Source of the DNA: Winogradskyella luteola
Lineage (GTDB): Bacteria > Bacteroidota > Bacteroidia > Flavobacteriales > Flavobacteriaceae
Length of the DNA: 64,000 nt
Reading direction: 5' to 3'
NCBI RefSeq assembly: GCF_019203985.1
Contig: NZ_JAGSPD010000009.1
Location: 62,001-126,000 of the forward strand
The notes beneath the pieces were generated by a model. The model did no database searches. It was not told the DNA's origin and worked only from the letters and a program-made list of their open reading frames with translations. This document shows positions 42,940 to 48,012 of the stretch, one piece after another. Positions within the stretch are counted from its first letter, which is position 1, and each line of letters starts with the position of its first letter. The translations under genes and the position numbers were made by a program.

Positions 42940-43395
42940 ATGAATAATTTGACAAACGAATTTTTCGGTATAGGCATCCAAAATGGCAAGACACCAGAAA
43001 ATCTTGGTGTACTTTGGCGTTCTGCTCAAAATCTTGGTGCCAGCTTTATTTTTACCATAGGCAACCGTTACTCTAAACAAGCTTGTGATACACATAATGC
43101 CGTAAAATCAATGCCATATTTTCATTATGATACTTTTGAAGATTTCTTCAATAACCTACCAAAGGGGGCAAGACTGGTGGGAGTTGAACTGACCGAAGAA
43201 GCCGAAAATTTAGAAAGCTTTCATCATCCTCGACGTTGTGTATACTTACTCGGAGCTGAAGACCATGGTTTATCTAAACAAGCCATACAAAAGAGCCACT
43301 TTTTGGTAAAGTTTAAATCACAGTTAAGTCTCAATGTCTCTGTTGCTGGCAGTATTGTTATGTACGATAGAGGACTTGCCAAGCCTAGATCGTGA
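42940..43395 (+). CDS. SpoU/TrmH-type RNA 2'-O-methyltransferase
   Basis: 151 residues, a single SPOUT domain. The three SpoU motifs are in order: KTPENLGVLWRSAQNLG (about 17-33), YLLGAEDHGLS (about 106-116) and LSLNVSVAGSIVMYDR (about 130-145), which make the SAM-binding knot. With no RNA-binding extension it resembles TrmL-sized enzymes that modify tRNA, but the target is not certain. A TATTTTTG -7 box is at 42924-42931. The last 72 bases overlap the end of the convergent CHAT gene. Confidence 0.88.
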   Translation: MNNLTNEFFGIGIQNGKTPENLGVLWRSAQNLGASFIFTIGNRYSKQACDTHNAVKSMPYFHYDTFEDFFNNLPKGARLVGVELTEEAENLESFHHPRRCVYLLGAEDHGLSKQAIQKSHFLVKFKSQLSLNVSVAGSIVMYDRGLAKPRS

Positions 43396-46300
43396 TTTTA
43401 TTCTATTTCTAATAAAAAAGTATAAAGCCAAAAAGATAACAAGAATAAGTGTTGCCCAAACCCACCACAAATTATCTGGGGATAAATCTATTGGGCTAGA
43501 ATCTCCAATTAAAACTAAACCTGCCCAATACTGAGGAGAACGTGTTCTTCCTTCTGCATTAGCAATGTAATCTAGTTTTGCTTTTTGTAGTGCTTCGTCT
43601 TTAGGTAATCCATTTTTAAGATAACCATAAAAATTATCGATAATCGTTGTACTGGATTGCTCATCAATTTTCCATAGACTTGTTAATATACTCTCGCTAC
43701 CAGCATAGTTAAATGCGTGCGCCAAAGAAATCATACCTTCTCCAGATTGGTAAGAAGGTTTGCCAGTTTCGCAAGCTGTTAAAATCGCCAAGTTAGAAGA
43801 TAGGTTTTGGTTATAGATTTCATAGGTATATAAAGAATTATCATCTGTTGCGGATTCATCATTTAAATTTTTGGCGAAAATGAGTCGAGATAACTCTGGC
43901 GATATATTATTGGATTCTGCATGCGTACCGATATGTATAATCTTATGCTCTTTTGCCTGAGAGGTGAAAACTTGTTTGGAAGCATTTTCGTTTATAAAAG
44001 ATTCCCCGTTGAATAATCTGGAGTATTCACTGGCTAAATCTACAGTAAAAGGCTGTGGCAATAAGGTTAAATAAGTGCGATCAATGTTTAAGGAATCTGT
44101 AATTGATATTTTGTAGTTTTCTTTCATTTCACGATTAAACTCTGGTGCAAAAGCAATAAAATCATTAGAGTAATCAATGGTTTTTCTTTGTTCTTCTAAT
44201 AGTAAGAGACTGTAGTTGTAAGATATAGTATGCATTGAGAGTAAACTGTTGGATGAAAATTCTTTTAAGGACTGGTTCTTTTTTCGGGTCATCATCTCAA
44301 AGCTAAGATTAAACAATTCACCATCTGGGATAATTATTACCCTTTTACTTACTACTTTGTCTTCTATTGGAAACCATAAACTATTATAAAGTTCATGGAG
44401 CGTATTGTTAATTTCATCTGTATTGGTTACATTATTATTTAATGAATTGATGAGTTCTGAAATTCCGTCGGAACTTAGCGCTACTAAACTGTTTTGGGTT
44501 TTGGAGTACACATAGGCGTACAATTTACCATCTATTTTTAAATAGCGAACTACAGTGGTTTCTGTTGGTAATTTAGATTGTAGCTGATTAATATCGGCTT
44601 CAATTTTAGCATAGCGCATCTTGTAATAATCCGGATAGGAAATTTTTAACGAATCAATAAAAATCTCCCAAGATTTTTCAGCTTTGAAAAAGGCATCAAT
44701 TTTAGCATCCTTTTTTGAAAGGCTACTGGTCAGTTCTTTTTTCAATTCTTTTTCACGCTCAAAAATTGATTTCGGAATGTTTGCAAAATTTACATCAAAC
44801 TTTAAACTTAATCGTGTTCTAATTTTGTTGTAAATACCAGCTTCGTGTAACTCTATTATTTTGCTGAGGTATGCCGGTTTTGAGGTTAGATTATAAAGCT
44901 CTAAATATAATAGTTTACCAAAGTCTGAAACGGTCTTGCTCTCGGAGAGTAATGTGGAAACATCATCAGCATCAAATGTTATTGCTTTTCTCTTTTCTAG
45001 AATTGTAAAGGCTTGGTTGAGTTTATGTGCCAATTTTAAAAGAAAATCTTCATCTCGTGATGATGTGGAATGGTATTTCGATTTTGCTTCAAAAAGTATA
45101 AATGTAGGTTGCCTAAATTCAACCTGTAGAGAATCCATTGCAAACGAAGCTTCTTTGATTCTGTTATCGAGATATGTATTTCCTTTTTCTGCCCACTCGT
45201 AAGCCTTTTGATAATCTTTAGCTAAAAAATAAATATTTGCAAGTGTCCCATATTCTTTTAATAAGGGAAAGTTATCATTGCCACCGTTTTCTCTAACATA
45301 ATTATAGGATTTTTTTGCTGTGGCTACAGCCTTTTCCTTTTCTCCATTTTCAGCAAGAAATAGAGCATAATCTCTTAAGAAAATTAGATAAGCTCTACTG
45401 TATTCCGTTGGATAGACTTGGCTGTATAGCTCCTCGCTCTCTTCATAGATTCTTGTTGCAGTTAAAGCGTCTCCTTTTTCGGCATAAGCTCGTGCTTTTA
45501 ACTGTAGAAACTCCGCTTCTAGAGAGGTGTATTTGTTAGATGAGCTTTTAAGCTGAGCTAATGCCTTGTTGATGCTTTCTATGCCTTTGTCTAAATCCTT
45601 AAGTTCAATTTCTGCCGTTGCAATCTGGTATAGTGCGGTAGCCAACCTTGGACTGGTAGGCTCATAGACCAATTTCTTTTTTTTGTAAGCATACGTTAAC
45701 ATATCGTAGGCTTTGGAAACAAAACCGATATCGTTGTAAAATGCCGCTAAATTTGAAAAGGCAGAAGACTGTAAACGTTCGGATTCTTGTACTAATTCTT
45801 CGTCTTTTGAATTGTCAATAATATTACTAAGGTTTTTTATAATATCTTTTTTCATTTCGATGGCTTCACCAACGTTTCCTGAATCGTCCAATACCAAAGC
45901 TAGGTTAAACTTAAACGCATTGATATAATATAGTTTGTCAAAACCTTTAAGTTCACTTTCTTCGGCAAATTTAATAGCCTTATTGAAAGCTATTTTAGCA
46001 CTGTCTAGCTTGTTTAATGTCCAATAAGAAACAGCTATGCCATTGTGGGCATCGGATACCTTAGATTTTTTGGCATCTTTGGATTTTTCGTAAGCAGAGA
46101 CAGCTTGTTTAAAATACCTTAGGGCATTGCTTAAATCATATAATGCGTAATAGTTACTACCAATGACGTAATTTATATGTCCCAGTTCCTTAGGCTTAAC
46201 ATCCGCTAACGACTCGGCATATTCCAATGCTTTTTTTGAGGCAATAACACAGTTGTCGTCATCTCCCAAATAAAGGTAAAGTTGATCCATACTCAAATAA

Positions 46301-46626
46301 GTTCTGAACAATGTTCTTTTATTAGGGGTAAGCGACTTTAAATTGTCAACAAATTTTTTGGCTTCCTTTACAGCATCGGTAGCGTTTTTTTTTTGAAGTG
46401 TTATTTTCCCAATGTACAGCGGATAATGATAAAGAGAGTCGTATAACTTTAAGCGCATTAATTGGTTTATTTGCGTGTTTAGCGCAGAATCAGCTTTTTT
46501 AATTTGATTTGCGTCTAAAAAGTTATCAATTTGTTCAAGTTTTAAGCTTGAATCTTGTTGCGCAAACAATGGTAGTGCAATGAAAAAATATAATATGTAT
46601 AGACTATTTCGTAATGTCACAACCAT
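43324..46626 (-). CDS. TPR-CHAT peptidase, membrane-anchored, probably periplasmic
   Basis: 1100 residues. A signal peptide ends at LFAQQ (about 23). About 35-500 is built of TPR-type helical repeats (for example LGHINYVIGSNYYALYDLSN and AYAEKGDALTATRIYEES). A coiled linker leads to a CHAT (caspase-HetF/TPR) peptidase at about 760-1030, with catalytic His902 in HIGTHAE and Cys952 in LTACETG, followed by GEGMISLAHAF and the SLWKIDE segment. A C-terminal helix (about 1053-1072) is followed by Arg/Lys residues. Signal plus stop-transfer puts both TPRs and CHAT in the periplasm, whereas most CHAT enzymes I know are cytosolic. It is the last gene of the sigma factor operon. Confidence 0.88.
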   Translation of the reverse strand: MVVTLRNSLYILYFFIALPLFAQQDSSLKLEQIDNFLDANQIKKADSALNTQINQLMRLKLYDSLYHYPLYIGKITLQKKNATDAVKEAKKFVDNLKSLTPNKRTLFRTYLSMDQLYLYLGDDDNCVIASKKALEYAESLADVKPKELGHINYVIGSNYYALYDLSNALRYFKQAVSAYEKSKDAKKSKVSDAHNGIAVSYWTLNKLDSAKIAFNKAIKFAEESELKGFDKLYYINAFKFNLALVLDDSGNVGEAIEMKKDIIKNLSNIIDNSKDEELVQESERLQSSAFSNLAAFYNDIGFVSKAYDMLTYAYKKKKLVYEPTSPRLATALYQIATAEIELKDLDKGIESINKALAQLKSSSNKYTSLEAEFLQLKARAYAEKGDALTATRIYEESEELYSQVYPTEYSRAYLIFLRDYALFLAENGEKEKAVATAKKSYNYVRENGGNDNFPLLKEYGTLANIYFLAKDYQKAYEWAEKGNTYLDNRIKEASFAMDSLQVEFRQPTFILFEAKSKYHSTSSRDEDFLLKLAHKLNQAFTILEKRKAITFDADDVSTLLSESKTVSDFGKLLYLELYNLTSKPAYLSKIIELHEAGIYNKIRTRLSLKFDVNFANIPKSIFEREKELKKELTSSLSKKDAKIDAFFKAEKSWEIFIDSLKISYPDYYKMRYAKIEADINQLQSKLPTETTVVRYLKIDGKLYAYVYSKTQNSLVALSSDGISELINSLNNNVTNTDEINNTLHELYNSLWFPIEDKVVSKRVIIIPDGELFNLSFEMMTRKKNQSLKEFSSNSLLSMHTISYNYSLLLLEEQRKTIDYSNDFIAFAPEFNREMKENYKISITDSLNIDRTYLTLLPQPFTVDLASEYSRLFNGESFINENASKQVFTSQAKEHKIIHIGTHAESNNISPELSRLIFAKNLNDESATDDNSLYTYEIYNQNLSSNLAILTACETGKPSYQSGEGMISLAHAFNYAGSESILTSLWKIDEQSSTTIIDNFYGYLKNGLPKDEALQKAKLDYIANAEGRTRSPQYWAGLVLIGDSSPIDLSPDNLWWVWATLILVIFLALYFFIRNRIKSRSRLGKSSIVHNNTASNRDIET

Positions 46627-46643
46627 GTTAAAAAGGTTTTTAG

Positions 46644-47378
46644 TTATTCTATTTTAGCTAATATTTCTTTGCTGTTTTCTGAAGATGATTTTTTAAGATT
46701 CACTTTAGCTTGCTTAGTATTTCCAGCTTTTAAATAGGCCAGTCCGAGGTAATAATGTGCATCGTTTTTTAATGCGAATTCAGGGTTTTTGGAAGCGTCC
46801 TCCAAAAAGGAAATAGCGATTTTCTCGTTTTTGCTAGCTAAATGTGCAACACCAATAAAATAATTTAAGGTATCACTTTGAGGCTTCAAATTTCTTAATG
46901 ATTCCCATTTTGAGATTGCACCTTTGTAGTCGCCTTGTTTGTAATCTACCATAGCTTCATAGAACTCATAATTGTCGTTACTGCCCATTGTTGTCGGCAA
47001 ACCTGGGTCTGGTGTAAAGTATTTAGCATACAAACGTTCATTAGAGCTACCACCGAAAAGCCAAAAACTTCCTAGACCTATAATTAAGATCGCAGCAACA
47101 GCGATTCTCTTCCAGTTGAATCTTCTAACTTTAGGTTGATTTACAACGGTTTTATCTTGATTGCTCGATAATTCATTATGAAACTCATCTAATTGTTCTT
47201 TCATGGTTTGGGTTTCTAAACCAGTTAAAACAATTTTTATGTCTTCAACTTTAGTTGCAAGATGGTTTTCATTTTTTAGTCTATTTTCAAATTCTAGCAA
47301 ATCTTCGTTAGAAAGCTGACCATTAATGTAGGCTTCGATCTTTTCAAATTCTTCTTGTGAAATATCATTTATATCCAT
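46644..47378 (-). CDS. Single-pass TPR protein, probable anti-sigma factor
   Basis: 244 residues. The cytoplasmic N-terminus (1-88) is short, acidic and helical (EEFEKIEAYINGQLSNEDLLEFE), like the sigma-binding part of Bacteroidota anti-sigma proteins but without zinc-finger residues. One membrane helix lies at about 91-106 (IAVAAILIIGLGSFWLF). The C-terminal 130 residues are periplasmic TPR repeats (AMVDYKQGDYKGAISKWESL, YYLGLAYLKAGNTKQAKVNL). It lies between the sigma factor and the CHAT peptidase, with gaps of 9 and 17 bp. The anti-sigma role is inferred from layout and topology. Confidence 0.75.
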   Translation of the reverse strand: MDINDISQEEFEKIEAYINGQLSNEDLLEFENRLKNENHLATKVEDIKIVLTGLETQTMKEQLDEFHNELSSNQDKTVVNQPKVRRFNWKRIAVAAILIIGLGSFWLFGGSSNERLYAKYFTPDPGLPTTMGSNDNYEFYEAMVDYKQGDYKGAISKWESLRNLKPQSDTLNYFIGVAHLASKNEKIAISFLEDASKNPEFALKNDAHYYLGLAYLKAGNTKQAKVNLKKSSSENSKEILAKIE

Positions 47379-47387
47379 TGCTATTAA

Positions 47388-47963
47388 CTATTTATTCAGG
47401 GCTATTTGTCTTAATTTTTGCATACAACGGTATTTTTTATTTCTGGTAGAAGCCGAATCTAAGGCTAATTCTTCTGCAATGAGATTCATGGGCTTTTTTT
47501 CAAAATAAAACTTACGTAGTAAGCGTTTACATGCGTCGCCTAAATCTTTAAAGGCTAGCATTACATCTTCTAATCGTTTGTCTTTTAAAATGTCATCATC
47601 TATACCGTTGTTTTCTTCATCTTTTATTTCAAAATGATGTAACTGGGATGCTACAATAGTTTTTTTAAAGCCTTGTGAACGAAGTACATCCATCCATTTG
47701 TTCTTTGCAATGGTGTAGAGATAACCATGTATTGACGATTCGCTTTTAGGTATAAATTTATTTTGCTTAATGTTCTGCCAAAGTGCTAAAAATGCTTCCT
47801 GATATACATCTTTTGCGTGTTCTTTTGTGCCGCTGTTTTTTAGAATCAGTGCTTCAATTTTTGGATAGTTACTTCTATAGATACTATTTAAAGTCTCAGA
47901 ATCATTAGCCTTAATTGCACTAATAACTTGCAGTTTATGGTCGGTTTGGTATGCTTTCCTCAT
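47388..47963 (-). CDS. ECF-like RNA polymerase sigma factor
   Basis: 191 residues from the ATG at 47963; the frame opens 16 codons earlier, but a promoter is placed so that the transcript starts just ahead of this ATG. Region 2 is seen in VYQEAFLALWQNIKQ and YLYTIAKNKWMDVLR; region 4 in FYFEKKPMNLIAEELALDSASTRNKKYRCMQKL. It is of the SigE/ECF type found with TPR proteins in Bacteroidota. It heads the operon with the TPR membrane protein and the CHAT peptidase. Confidence 0.88.
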   Translation of the reverse strand: MRKAYQTDHKLQVISAIKANDSETLNSIYRSNYPKIEALILKNSGTKEHAKDVYQEAFLALWQNIKQNKFIPKSESSIHGYLYTIAKNKWMDVLRSQGFKKTIVASQLHHFEIKDEENNGIDDDILKDKRLEDVMLAFKDLGDACKRLLRKFYFEKKPMNLIAEELALDSASTRNKKYRCMQKLRQIALNK

Positions 47964-47981
47964 GTTAATAGCTAAACACAA

Positions 47982-48012
47982 GAAAGATACAATTAATTCA
48001 TTTTTCTGCAAA
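47982..48012 (-). promoter_or_regulatory. Promoter of the sigma-CHAT operon
   Basis: On the minus strand TTTG (complement of 48009-48012) and TATCTTTC (complement of 47982-47989) are 19 bp apart. Only the last base of the -7 box differs from the general consensus. Expression from a housekeeping-like promoter is suggested. Confidence 0.6.

Follow-up and report, generated by a model that had tools for sequence, protein, structure and literature searches.

The stretch of Winogradskyella luteola DNA analysed here (64,000 nucleotides of contig NZ_JAGSPD010000009.1; 'the window') contains an operon of three minus-strand genes. These encode, in order, a sigma factor of the extracytoplasmic function (ECF) type, a membrane protein with tetratricopeptide repeats (TPRs) and a TPR-CHAT protein, with spacers of 9 bp and then 17 bp. 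Judged from its sequence and those of its relatives, the operon is probably a protease-gated envelope transcription switch, in which CHAT would act as the dedicated periplasmic site-1 protease of the putative anti-sigma protein. The evidence is comparative: association of the genes, topology signals, an invariant catalytic dyad, a motif that changes where CHAT is lost, and covariation of P1 (the residue before the proposed cut) with the S1 pocket of CHAT.

In the proposed switch, the N-terminal cytosolic domain of the middle protein would tether the sigma factor at the inner membrane. The third protein, a caspase-like protease, is predicted to be exported to the periplasm and held there by its C terminus. 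Upon a signal, CHAT would cleave the short linker that joins the membrane helix to the TPRs; the cut would follow Met131 in the window's protein and, in sister systems, Arg, Lys or perhaps Gln. The remaining stub would then probably be cleaved in the membrane by an RseP-like M50 protease, releasing the sigma factor. An M50 protease (PF02163) is encoded in the window's genome (G000:C3) and may perform this second cut. Its presence is weak evidence, because all 14 control genomes also have one. An M50 gene adjoins the sigma pair in loci L116 and L276.

Genes and predicted proteins of the operon

The genes, and the features of the two larger proteins, are as follows.

47388..48011, minus strand: ECF-type sigma factor (longest frame, TTG start at 48011; profile and Pfam matches)
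46644..47378, minus strand: membrane TPR protein, putative anti-sigma, 244 aa (Pfam, hydropathy, model)
47049..47105, minus strand: predicted transmembrane segment of the TPR protein, residues 92-110 (hydropathy; model helix 89-108)
46983..47012, minus strand: motif PDPGLPTTMG, residues 123-132, with the proposed CHAT cleavage site after Met131 (comparison, model)
43324..46626, minus strand: TPR-CHAT protein, predicted to be secreted and C-terminally anchored, 1100 aa (Pfam, hydropathy, model)
46561..46626, minus strand: predicted signal peptide, residues 1-22 (read from sequence; N termini of relatives)
43501..44403, minus strand: CHAT peptidase domain, residues 742-1042 (PF12770, E 4e-42)
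43921..43923, minus strand: catalytic His902 (invariant, 40/40)
43771..43773, minus strand: catalytic Cys952 (invariant, 40/40)
43411..43467, minus strand: predicted C-terminal membrane anchor, residues 1054-1072 (hydropathy)

An earlier note on this DNA had pointed to the tight packing of these genes, and the genes lie where it placed them, all three on the minus strand. The sigma factor passes the NCBIfam sigma70-ECF profile TIGR02937 (66.5 bits, curated cut-off 42.9) and matches sigma region 2 in Pfam. Translation more likely begins at an ATG at 47963 (191 aa) than at the TTG at 48011, because alignments of orthologous sigma factors mostly begin at residue 17-30 of the TTG-started frame; that of locus L037 begins at 10.

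The membrane TPR protein consists of N-terminal helices (8-75), a transmembrane segment (about 92-110) and TPR helices (134-243). One internal hydrophobic segment is flagged in 27/30 related TPR proteins. In the model of the protein (mean predicted local distance difference test score, pLDDT, 90) the proposed cleavage site falls in coil 121-133, which follows a short helix and precedes the TPRs; the codon of Met131 is 46986-46988 on the minus strand. Membrane anti-sigma factors usually have a cytosolic N terminus and a single transmembrane segment. By predicted topology the TPR protein has such an arrangement, with an N-terminal domain, one transmembrane segment, an outer part and a gene adjoining that of the sigma factor. 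A fold search with the protein returned TPR domains, and an anti-sigma fold was not among the matches listed, which excludes nothing.

The CHAT domain of the third protein scores 145 bits against PF12770 (curated cut-off 24). The catalytic dyad, His902 and Cys952, residues named in the earlier note, is indeed present in all 40 aligned CHAT proteins. The N terminus, MVVTLRNSLYILYFFIALPLFAQQ, is signal-like when read by eye from the sequence, and the hydrophobic stretch at 1054-1072 is followed by basic RNRIKSRSR. A C-terminal hydrophobic segment is flagged in 39/42 related CHAT reading frames, the three without it being L064, L070 and the N-terminal piece of L056. Based on the signal-like start, the C-terminal anchor and the single transmembrane segment of the TPR protein, the TPRs and the CHAT domain of the operon are predicted to lie in the periplasm. 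The topology proposed earlier, which places the middle protein's TPRs and the CHAT domain outside the inner membrane, is thus also predicted here. The model of the CHAT protein (mean pLDDT 86) has Csx29/TPR-CHAT and separase among its best fold matches, and TPR-only proteins score equally high; in profile searches of the PDB with alignments A2 and A4, TPR proteins came first. At its 3' end the CHAT gene (43324-46626, minus strand) overlaps an SpoU-type methylase gene (42940-43395, plus strand) tail to tail by 72 bp.

Occurrence and gene layouts among relatives

The CHAT search covered 199 genomes of the window's family. Only three CHAT candidates were scored per genome, so that some CHAT genes may have been missed. 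A CHAT-like match was found in 85/199 genomes, and a homologue of the TPR protein lies within 12 kb of 114 of the 130 CHAT matches. Counted per genome, 77 have both, 8 CHAT only, 5 the TPR protein only and 109 neither. Pairs were formed by position after removal of TPR-protein rows weaker than E 1.6e-16; the TPR query alignment, A1, was itself made from CHAT neighbours, and the CHAT-only matches are partly fragments or contig ends.

The pairs fall into several layouts. In class I, the window's type (24 pairs), the TPR gene is directly upstream on the same strand, at up to 300 bp. In class II (38 pairs) the genes are convergent within 300 bp, and in class III (34 pairs) the TPR gene is on the opposite strand, 3-12 kb upstream. 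The remaining CHAT matches comprise 18 pairs arranged otherwise and 16 without a TPR-protein partner. Besides the window, the same-strand trio occurs in order in 22 of the 24 class I loci that were fetched; the exceptions are L040, broken by a contig end, and L045, with CHAT alone. A homologue of the sigma factor adjoins the TPR gene in most loci, and none was found beside it in L065, L117-L119, L165 and L175. The earlier note had called for a survey of the three-gene order across Bacteroidota; by these counts the trio recurs.

Outside the family, among 295 genomes of the same taxonomic class, class I operons are present in L186-L189, L191-L193, L196, L197, L200 and L201, and the convergent layout in L185, L194, L195, L212 and L213. 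No such neighbour was seen within flanks of up to 1.5 kb in L190, L198 and L202-L210. A peptide-pattern search of genome contigs gave 68 stretches, with no relative among them.

Some loci depart from these simple arrangements. In L104 (class III) the sigma factor and TPR protein are divergent from a set comprising a lipoprotein-like protein (by eye), a 650-aa protein with PKD, DUF7619 and DUF7849 domains, and CHAT, behind which lies a 149-aa retroviral-type aspartyl protease. The gene order is similar in L105-L108 and L113; the Pfam scan covered L104 only. Tandem CHAT genes follow a single sigma/TPR pair on the same strand in L049 (6146-12702) and on the opposite strand in L234 (8459-14464). 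The window's genome has a second TPR-CHAT gene (L033, 4522-7341 of contig C7; 939 aa, with Glu at column 864), whose frame stops one residue past the CHAT domain and so has no anchor. In L033 and L183 no sigma or TPR-protein homologue was seen, and a gene for a 492-aa protein without a Pfam match precedes the TPR-CHAT gene.

Covariation of the proposed site with the CHAT pocket

In class I, the TPR proteins carry PDPGLPTTM[G/S] or a close variant directly after the membrane segment. In classes II and III there is an R or K, rarely a Q, at a similar distance, and the next residue is mostly G, S, D or N. The identity of this P1 residue was compared with the CHAT alignment in 147 TPR-protein/CHAT pairs, 113 of them outside class I. 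Four CHAT positions, numbered as in the window protein, stand out.

44035..44037, minus strand: Leu864, candidate S1-wall position in helix 859-871; Glu in Arg-type relatives (alignment, model)
43927..43929, minus strand: Gly900, two residues before His902, candidate S1-wall position (covariation)
43777..43779, minus strand: Thr950, two residues before Cys952, candidate S1-wall position (covariation)
43660..43662, minus strand: Glu989, following strand 979-983; all 94 Arg-type pairs have Asp here (covariation, model)

The clearest correspondence is with column 989, where all 94 Arg pairs have Asp and all 34 Met pairs have Glu. Lys is paired with Glu in 13 cases and with Asp in 2, and Gln with Gln and with Glu in 2 each. 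Column 864 is acidic in 94/94 Arg pairs and in 13/53 others. When mutual information is normalised (divided by column entropy), the top four of 349 columns without class I are 989, 864, 950 and 900; once class I is added, the ranking runs 989, 858, 950, 957, 900, 864. Plain mutual information for Arg against the rest, with class I, puts 989, 900, 864 and 950 first. Columns with more than 20 percent gaps were left out of these rankings. Loci without CHAT or without the TPR protein were excluded, as were, in the first batch, CHAT domains with more than 200 of 406 columns gapped. P1 tags were set by hand in 12 first-batch and 34 second-batch loci, and column 864 of L201 was read by motif because the alignment is shifted there (D in one alignment, Y in another). 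Fisher values for the pairs ignore kinship.

Neighbouring sites from P4 to P3' served as a control. Without class I, all four pocket columns come out on top for P1 only; for P2, columns 951 and 950 come third and fifth, and 989 is eighth for P4. The reverse test used a TPR alignment independent of CHAT, with 238 usable columns in the whole set. Among the 113 pairs, the column containing Arg, Lys or Gln is the best for 989, 864, 950 and 900; with class I it is best for 989, 950 and 900 and second for 864. Column 864 was also considered as the sole specificity residue. This is too weak, with few changes on the tree and Lys/Gln pairs that may keep the acid.

In clan CD peptidases, according to a review, the S1 wall is formed by helix alpha1, loops L3 and L4, which bear the catalytic His and Cys, and L5; the wall residues given include Asp365, Asp462 and Glu500 of MALT1 and Asp95, Ser156 and Asp211 of TbMCA2, while MARTX-CPD, which cuts after Leu, carries Ala47 on alpha1 (PMC4357240). 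Set beside this description, our alignments suggest that columns 864, 900, 950 and 989 match the S1-wall elements. We take Ser156 and Asp211 of TbMCA2 to be the residues two before the catalytic His and Cys.

If pocket and P1 have coevolved into Arg, Lys, Gln and Met types, this would keep the many circuits that run side by side within a single genome insulated from each other. Genome G195 has nine CHAT domains and many sigma/TPR pairs with differing P1 (Arg, Lys and Gln), in loci L111, L160, L169 and L176-L180. This set is possibly one of insulated parallel circuits.

Change of the motif where CHAT is lost

The motif was followed through 63 class I TPR proteins with the pattern G[L/I][P/A]xxM[G/S]. 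Where the genome contains a class I CHAT, the pattern is matched by 57/57 proteins, including two whose CHAT is unlinked (L116 and L276, with CHAT at L045 and L277). Where class I CHAT is absent, it is matched by 0/6 (L114, L115, L117, L118, L119 and L274). Within the family, agreement after loss falls from 1.00 to 0.17 at Met131, from 1.00 to 0.33 at Asp124 and from 1.00 to 0.50 at Pro128, and TPR positions such as Asp169, Gly176 and Tyr210 remain near 1. On the tree there are three switches in CHAT presence; the supported independent pairs, also three, all change in the same direction (p 0.25).

The loss in L274 is recent. A CHAT remnant of 113 residues is left, the sigma frame is in two pieces and Met has become Ile. 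The sister loci L037 (of L274) and L275 (of L118) are intact. Genomes G132 and G175 have zero PF12770 matches; in G036, G049 and G121 the CHAT genes belong to other classes; and G637, which contains L274, was searched with the class I and A4 profiles only.

The earlier note suggested that the CHAT peptidase, on sensing a signal through its TPRs, cuts the periplasmic side of the anti-sigma protein and frees the sigma factor. This reading is supported in part, and in silico: the genes go together, the dyad is invariant, and the TPR protein has a specific site, predicted to be periplasmic, that varies in step with the CHAT S1 pocket and is altered where class I CHAT has been lost.

Weighing the proposed switch

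Several observations weigh against CHAT as the site-1 protease of an anti-sigma protein. The curated anti-sigma profile NF052375 gives the TPR protein 23.4 bits against a cut-off of 100, and because this is not passed the anti-sigma role is called putative. P1 was assigned by eye when column 864 was already known for each locus; columns 989, 900 and 950 were tabulated later. Two of the Lys pairs retain Asp989. In the plain ranking without class I the leading columns are 989, 904, 1040, 993, 900 and 986, and 864 and 950 fall outside the top 12. Again without class I, column 864 also leads for P2' and ranks second for both P3 and P1', and is therefore not specific to P1. The class I Met sits outside the Arg/Lys/Gln column in the automatic alignment, and since the alignment does not join them, the equivalence of the Met and Arg sites rests on motif, distance, loss pattern and pocket code.

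The tree and the CHAT-loss comparison add further points of this kind. The supported independent pairs for the pocket columns number 2 or 3, with which the sign test cannot reach 0.05; in the set with three, P1 changes in the same direction in two and in the opposite direction in none. The three CHAT-loss pairs are below significance for the same reason. Positions outside the motif also drop after loss (Val144, Lys147, Lys157, Phe at 203, Ala95 and His67), and L114 retains its Met, the change there being limited to the next residue and the PDP part. The motif is retained in L056, one of the 57 matching proteins, beside a CHAT frame interrupted by stops. In G003 an Arg-Gly site is retained, and CHAT was not found in this 80 percent complete genome. 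Finally, the TPRs of L117-L119 are conserved though the adjoining sigma gene and class I CHAT are gone, so that the TPR part, or the protein, may have a second role.

The alternative that survives best, although unlikely, is that CHAT is the output. The sigma factor, freed by another periplasmic protease, would induce CHAT against unrelated envelope or incoming proteins, and the motif would serve for docking only. Such a role would suit a CHAT gene that is last in the class I sigma operon and a separate unit in other layouts, in L104 beside genes for secreted proteins (the PKD/DUF7849 protein, the by-eye lipoprotein and the aspartyl protease). However, P1 covaries with S1-wall columns, which is expected of a substrate more than of a docking site, and in a crude test no sequence dyad exceeded shuffles upstream of 102 separate CHAT genes (best 5, shuffles up to 6).

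Upstream of the sigma genes the same test, too crude to build on, did find dyads above shuffles, the best in 10/42 class I regions (shuffles up to 4) and 18/102 others (up to 11). Dyads of the form TGATGACA...CGATGT occur in 9/42 class I regions, for example in L035 and L036, and GTTAA...TTAAA dyads in 18/102 regions outside class I. These are possible self-promoters.

It is quite improbable, in our estimate, that the TPR protein instead serves as a chaperone or in assembly, its gene being no more than a companion of the sigma gene, and that CHAT processes it for some other purpose. The retention of TPRs in L117, L118 and L119 without adjoining sigma factor and class I CHAT, together with the weak match to the anti-sigma profile, would be accounted for in this way. 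Against it stand the homologue of the same sigma factor that adjoins the TPR gene in most loci and the predicted cytosolic N terminus and single transmembrane segment, generally the layout of a membrane anti-sigma factor. A catalytically idle CHAT, with TPR domains that only join the anti-sigma protein in a structural sensor complex and covariation due to shared ancestry, would fit the few independent switches and counts dominated by related rows, but it is very hard to credit given the 40/40 invariance of His902 and Cys952, the motif altered after three separate CHAT losses, and the joint top rank of 989, 864, 950 and 900 for P1 alone among P4 to P3'.

Comparison with known systems

Each system has a proposed cut site of its own, and with the pocket code added, the function of the proposed protease-gated switch is testable by single residue changes. 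Few routes are known that carry signals through the bacterial envelope to ECF sigma factors, and a family of caspase-like proteases acting outside the membrane would be a new one. The earlier note had taken a periplasmic CHAT peptidase wired to a sigma factor to be new. Craspase with Csx30 and DdvA provide precedents for a CHAT protease on a sigma-factor inhibitor; the exported, two-protein form is new as far as the literature searched goes. In the titles and abstract openings of the open PubMed Central (PMC) papers listed by these searches the trio is not described. Within the same limit, the spread in the taxonomic class, the proposed site and the pocket code are new as well.

In E. coli, DegS, the site-1 protease of the DegS/RseA/RseP system, is a PDZ serine protease. 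The likeness to the window's operon is in the proposed logic, with a periplasmic cut of the anti-sigma protein followed by an M50 cut in the membrane. Unlike DegS, the site-1 protease proposed here is a caspase-like cysteine protease with TPRs. CalpL/CalpT/CalpS, of type III CRISPR, also uses a protease to cleave an anti-sigma protein bound to an ECF sigma factor (PMC11417357). CalpL, however, is of the Lon type, and cyclic oligoadenylate gates it.

DdvA of Myxococcus xanthus (PDB 8rot, 8rw5) is titled a transmembrane anti-sigma factor and its molecule is named a CHAT domain-containing protein; in the alignment, its catalytic columns are occupied by His and Cys. The ECF sigma factor DdvS is activated by inactivation of its anti-sigma factor DdvA (PMC4374960). 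Anti-sigma function and CHAT apparently reside in one protein in DdvA, whereas the window has two genes for a proposed substrate-protease pair. In separase (C50), which is eukaryotic, the residue that reads P1 is D2151 (PMC9729208). Equating column 989 with D2151 was rejected: that source places D2151 at Csx29 K670, which is Trp plus 8 by count on the alignment made here, and column 989 is at Trp plus 4. The pocket comparison therefore draws on the S1-wall elements of clan CD in general.

The Craspase protease acts in the cytosol together with Cas7-11, and target RNA is its trigger. Craspase belongs to type III-E CRISPR and comprises Csx29 (a TPR-CHAT protein), Csx30 and CASP-sigma/RpoE, and its CHAT protease acts on a sigma-factor inhibitor (PMC10028731). 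It differs from the window's system, in which the TPR-CHAT protein has a signal-like N terminus and a C-terminal anchor and the proposed substrate is a one-pass membrane protein. The Craspase cut sites are not conserved, whereas the site proposed here shows both conservation and covariation with the pocket. For ten neighbouring proteins of the window, PADLOC gives only weak matches, to CARF3, Leo, mad8 and Csx3, and Cas7-11 is not named among them. On balance we lean, by a modest degree, towards the view that the window's taxonomic class, probably Bacteroidia judging by family names, contains a large, so far undescribed family of periplasmic CHAT site-1 proteases of ECF anti-sigma factors, with P1 and pocket coevolving and insulating parallel circuits, and that Craspase is a CRISPR-captured cousin. 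If this is true, RNA-guided Craspase would be the captured relative of an older envelope switch, and the non-CRISPR setting described here is offered as the possible origin of its sigma circuit.

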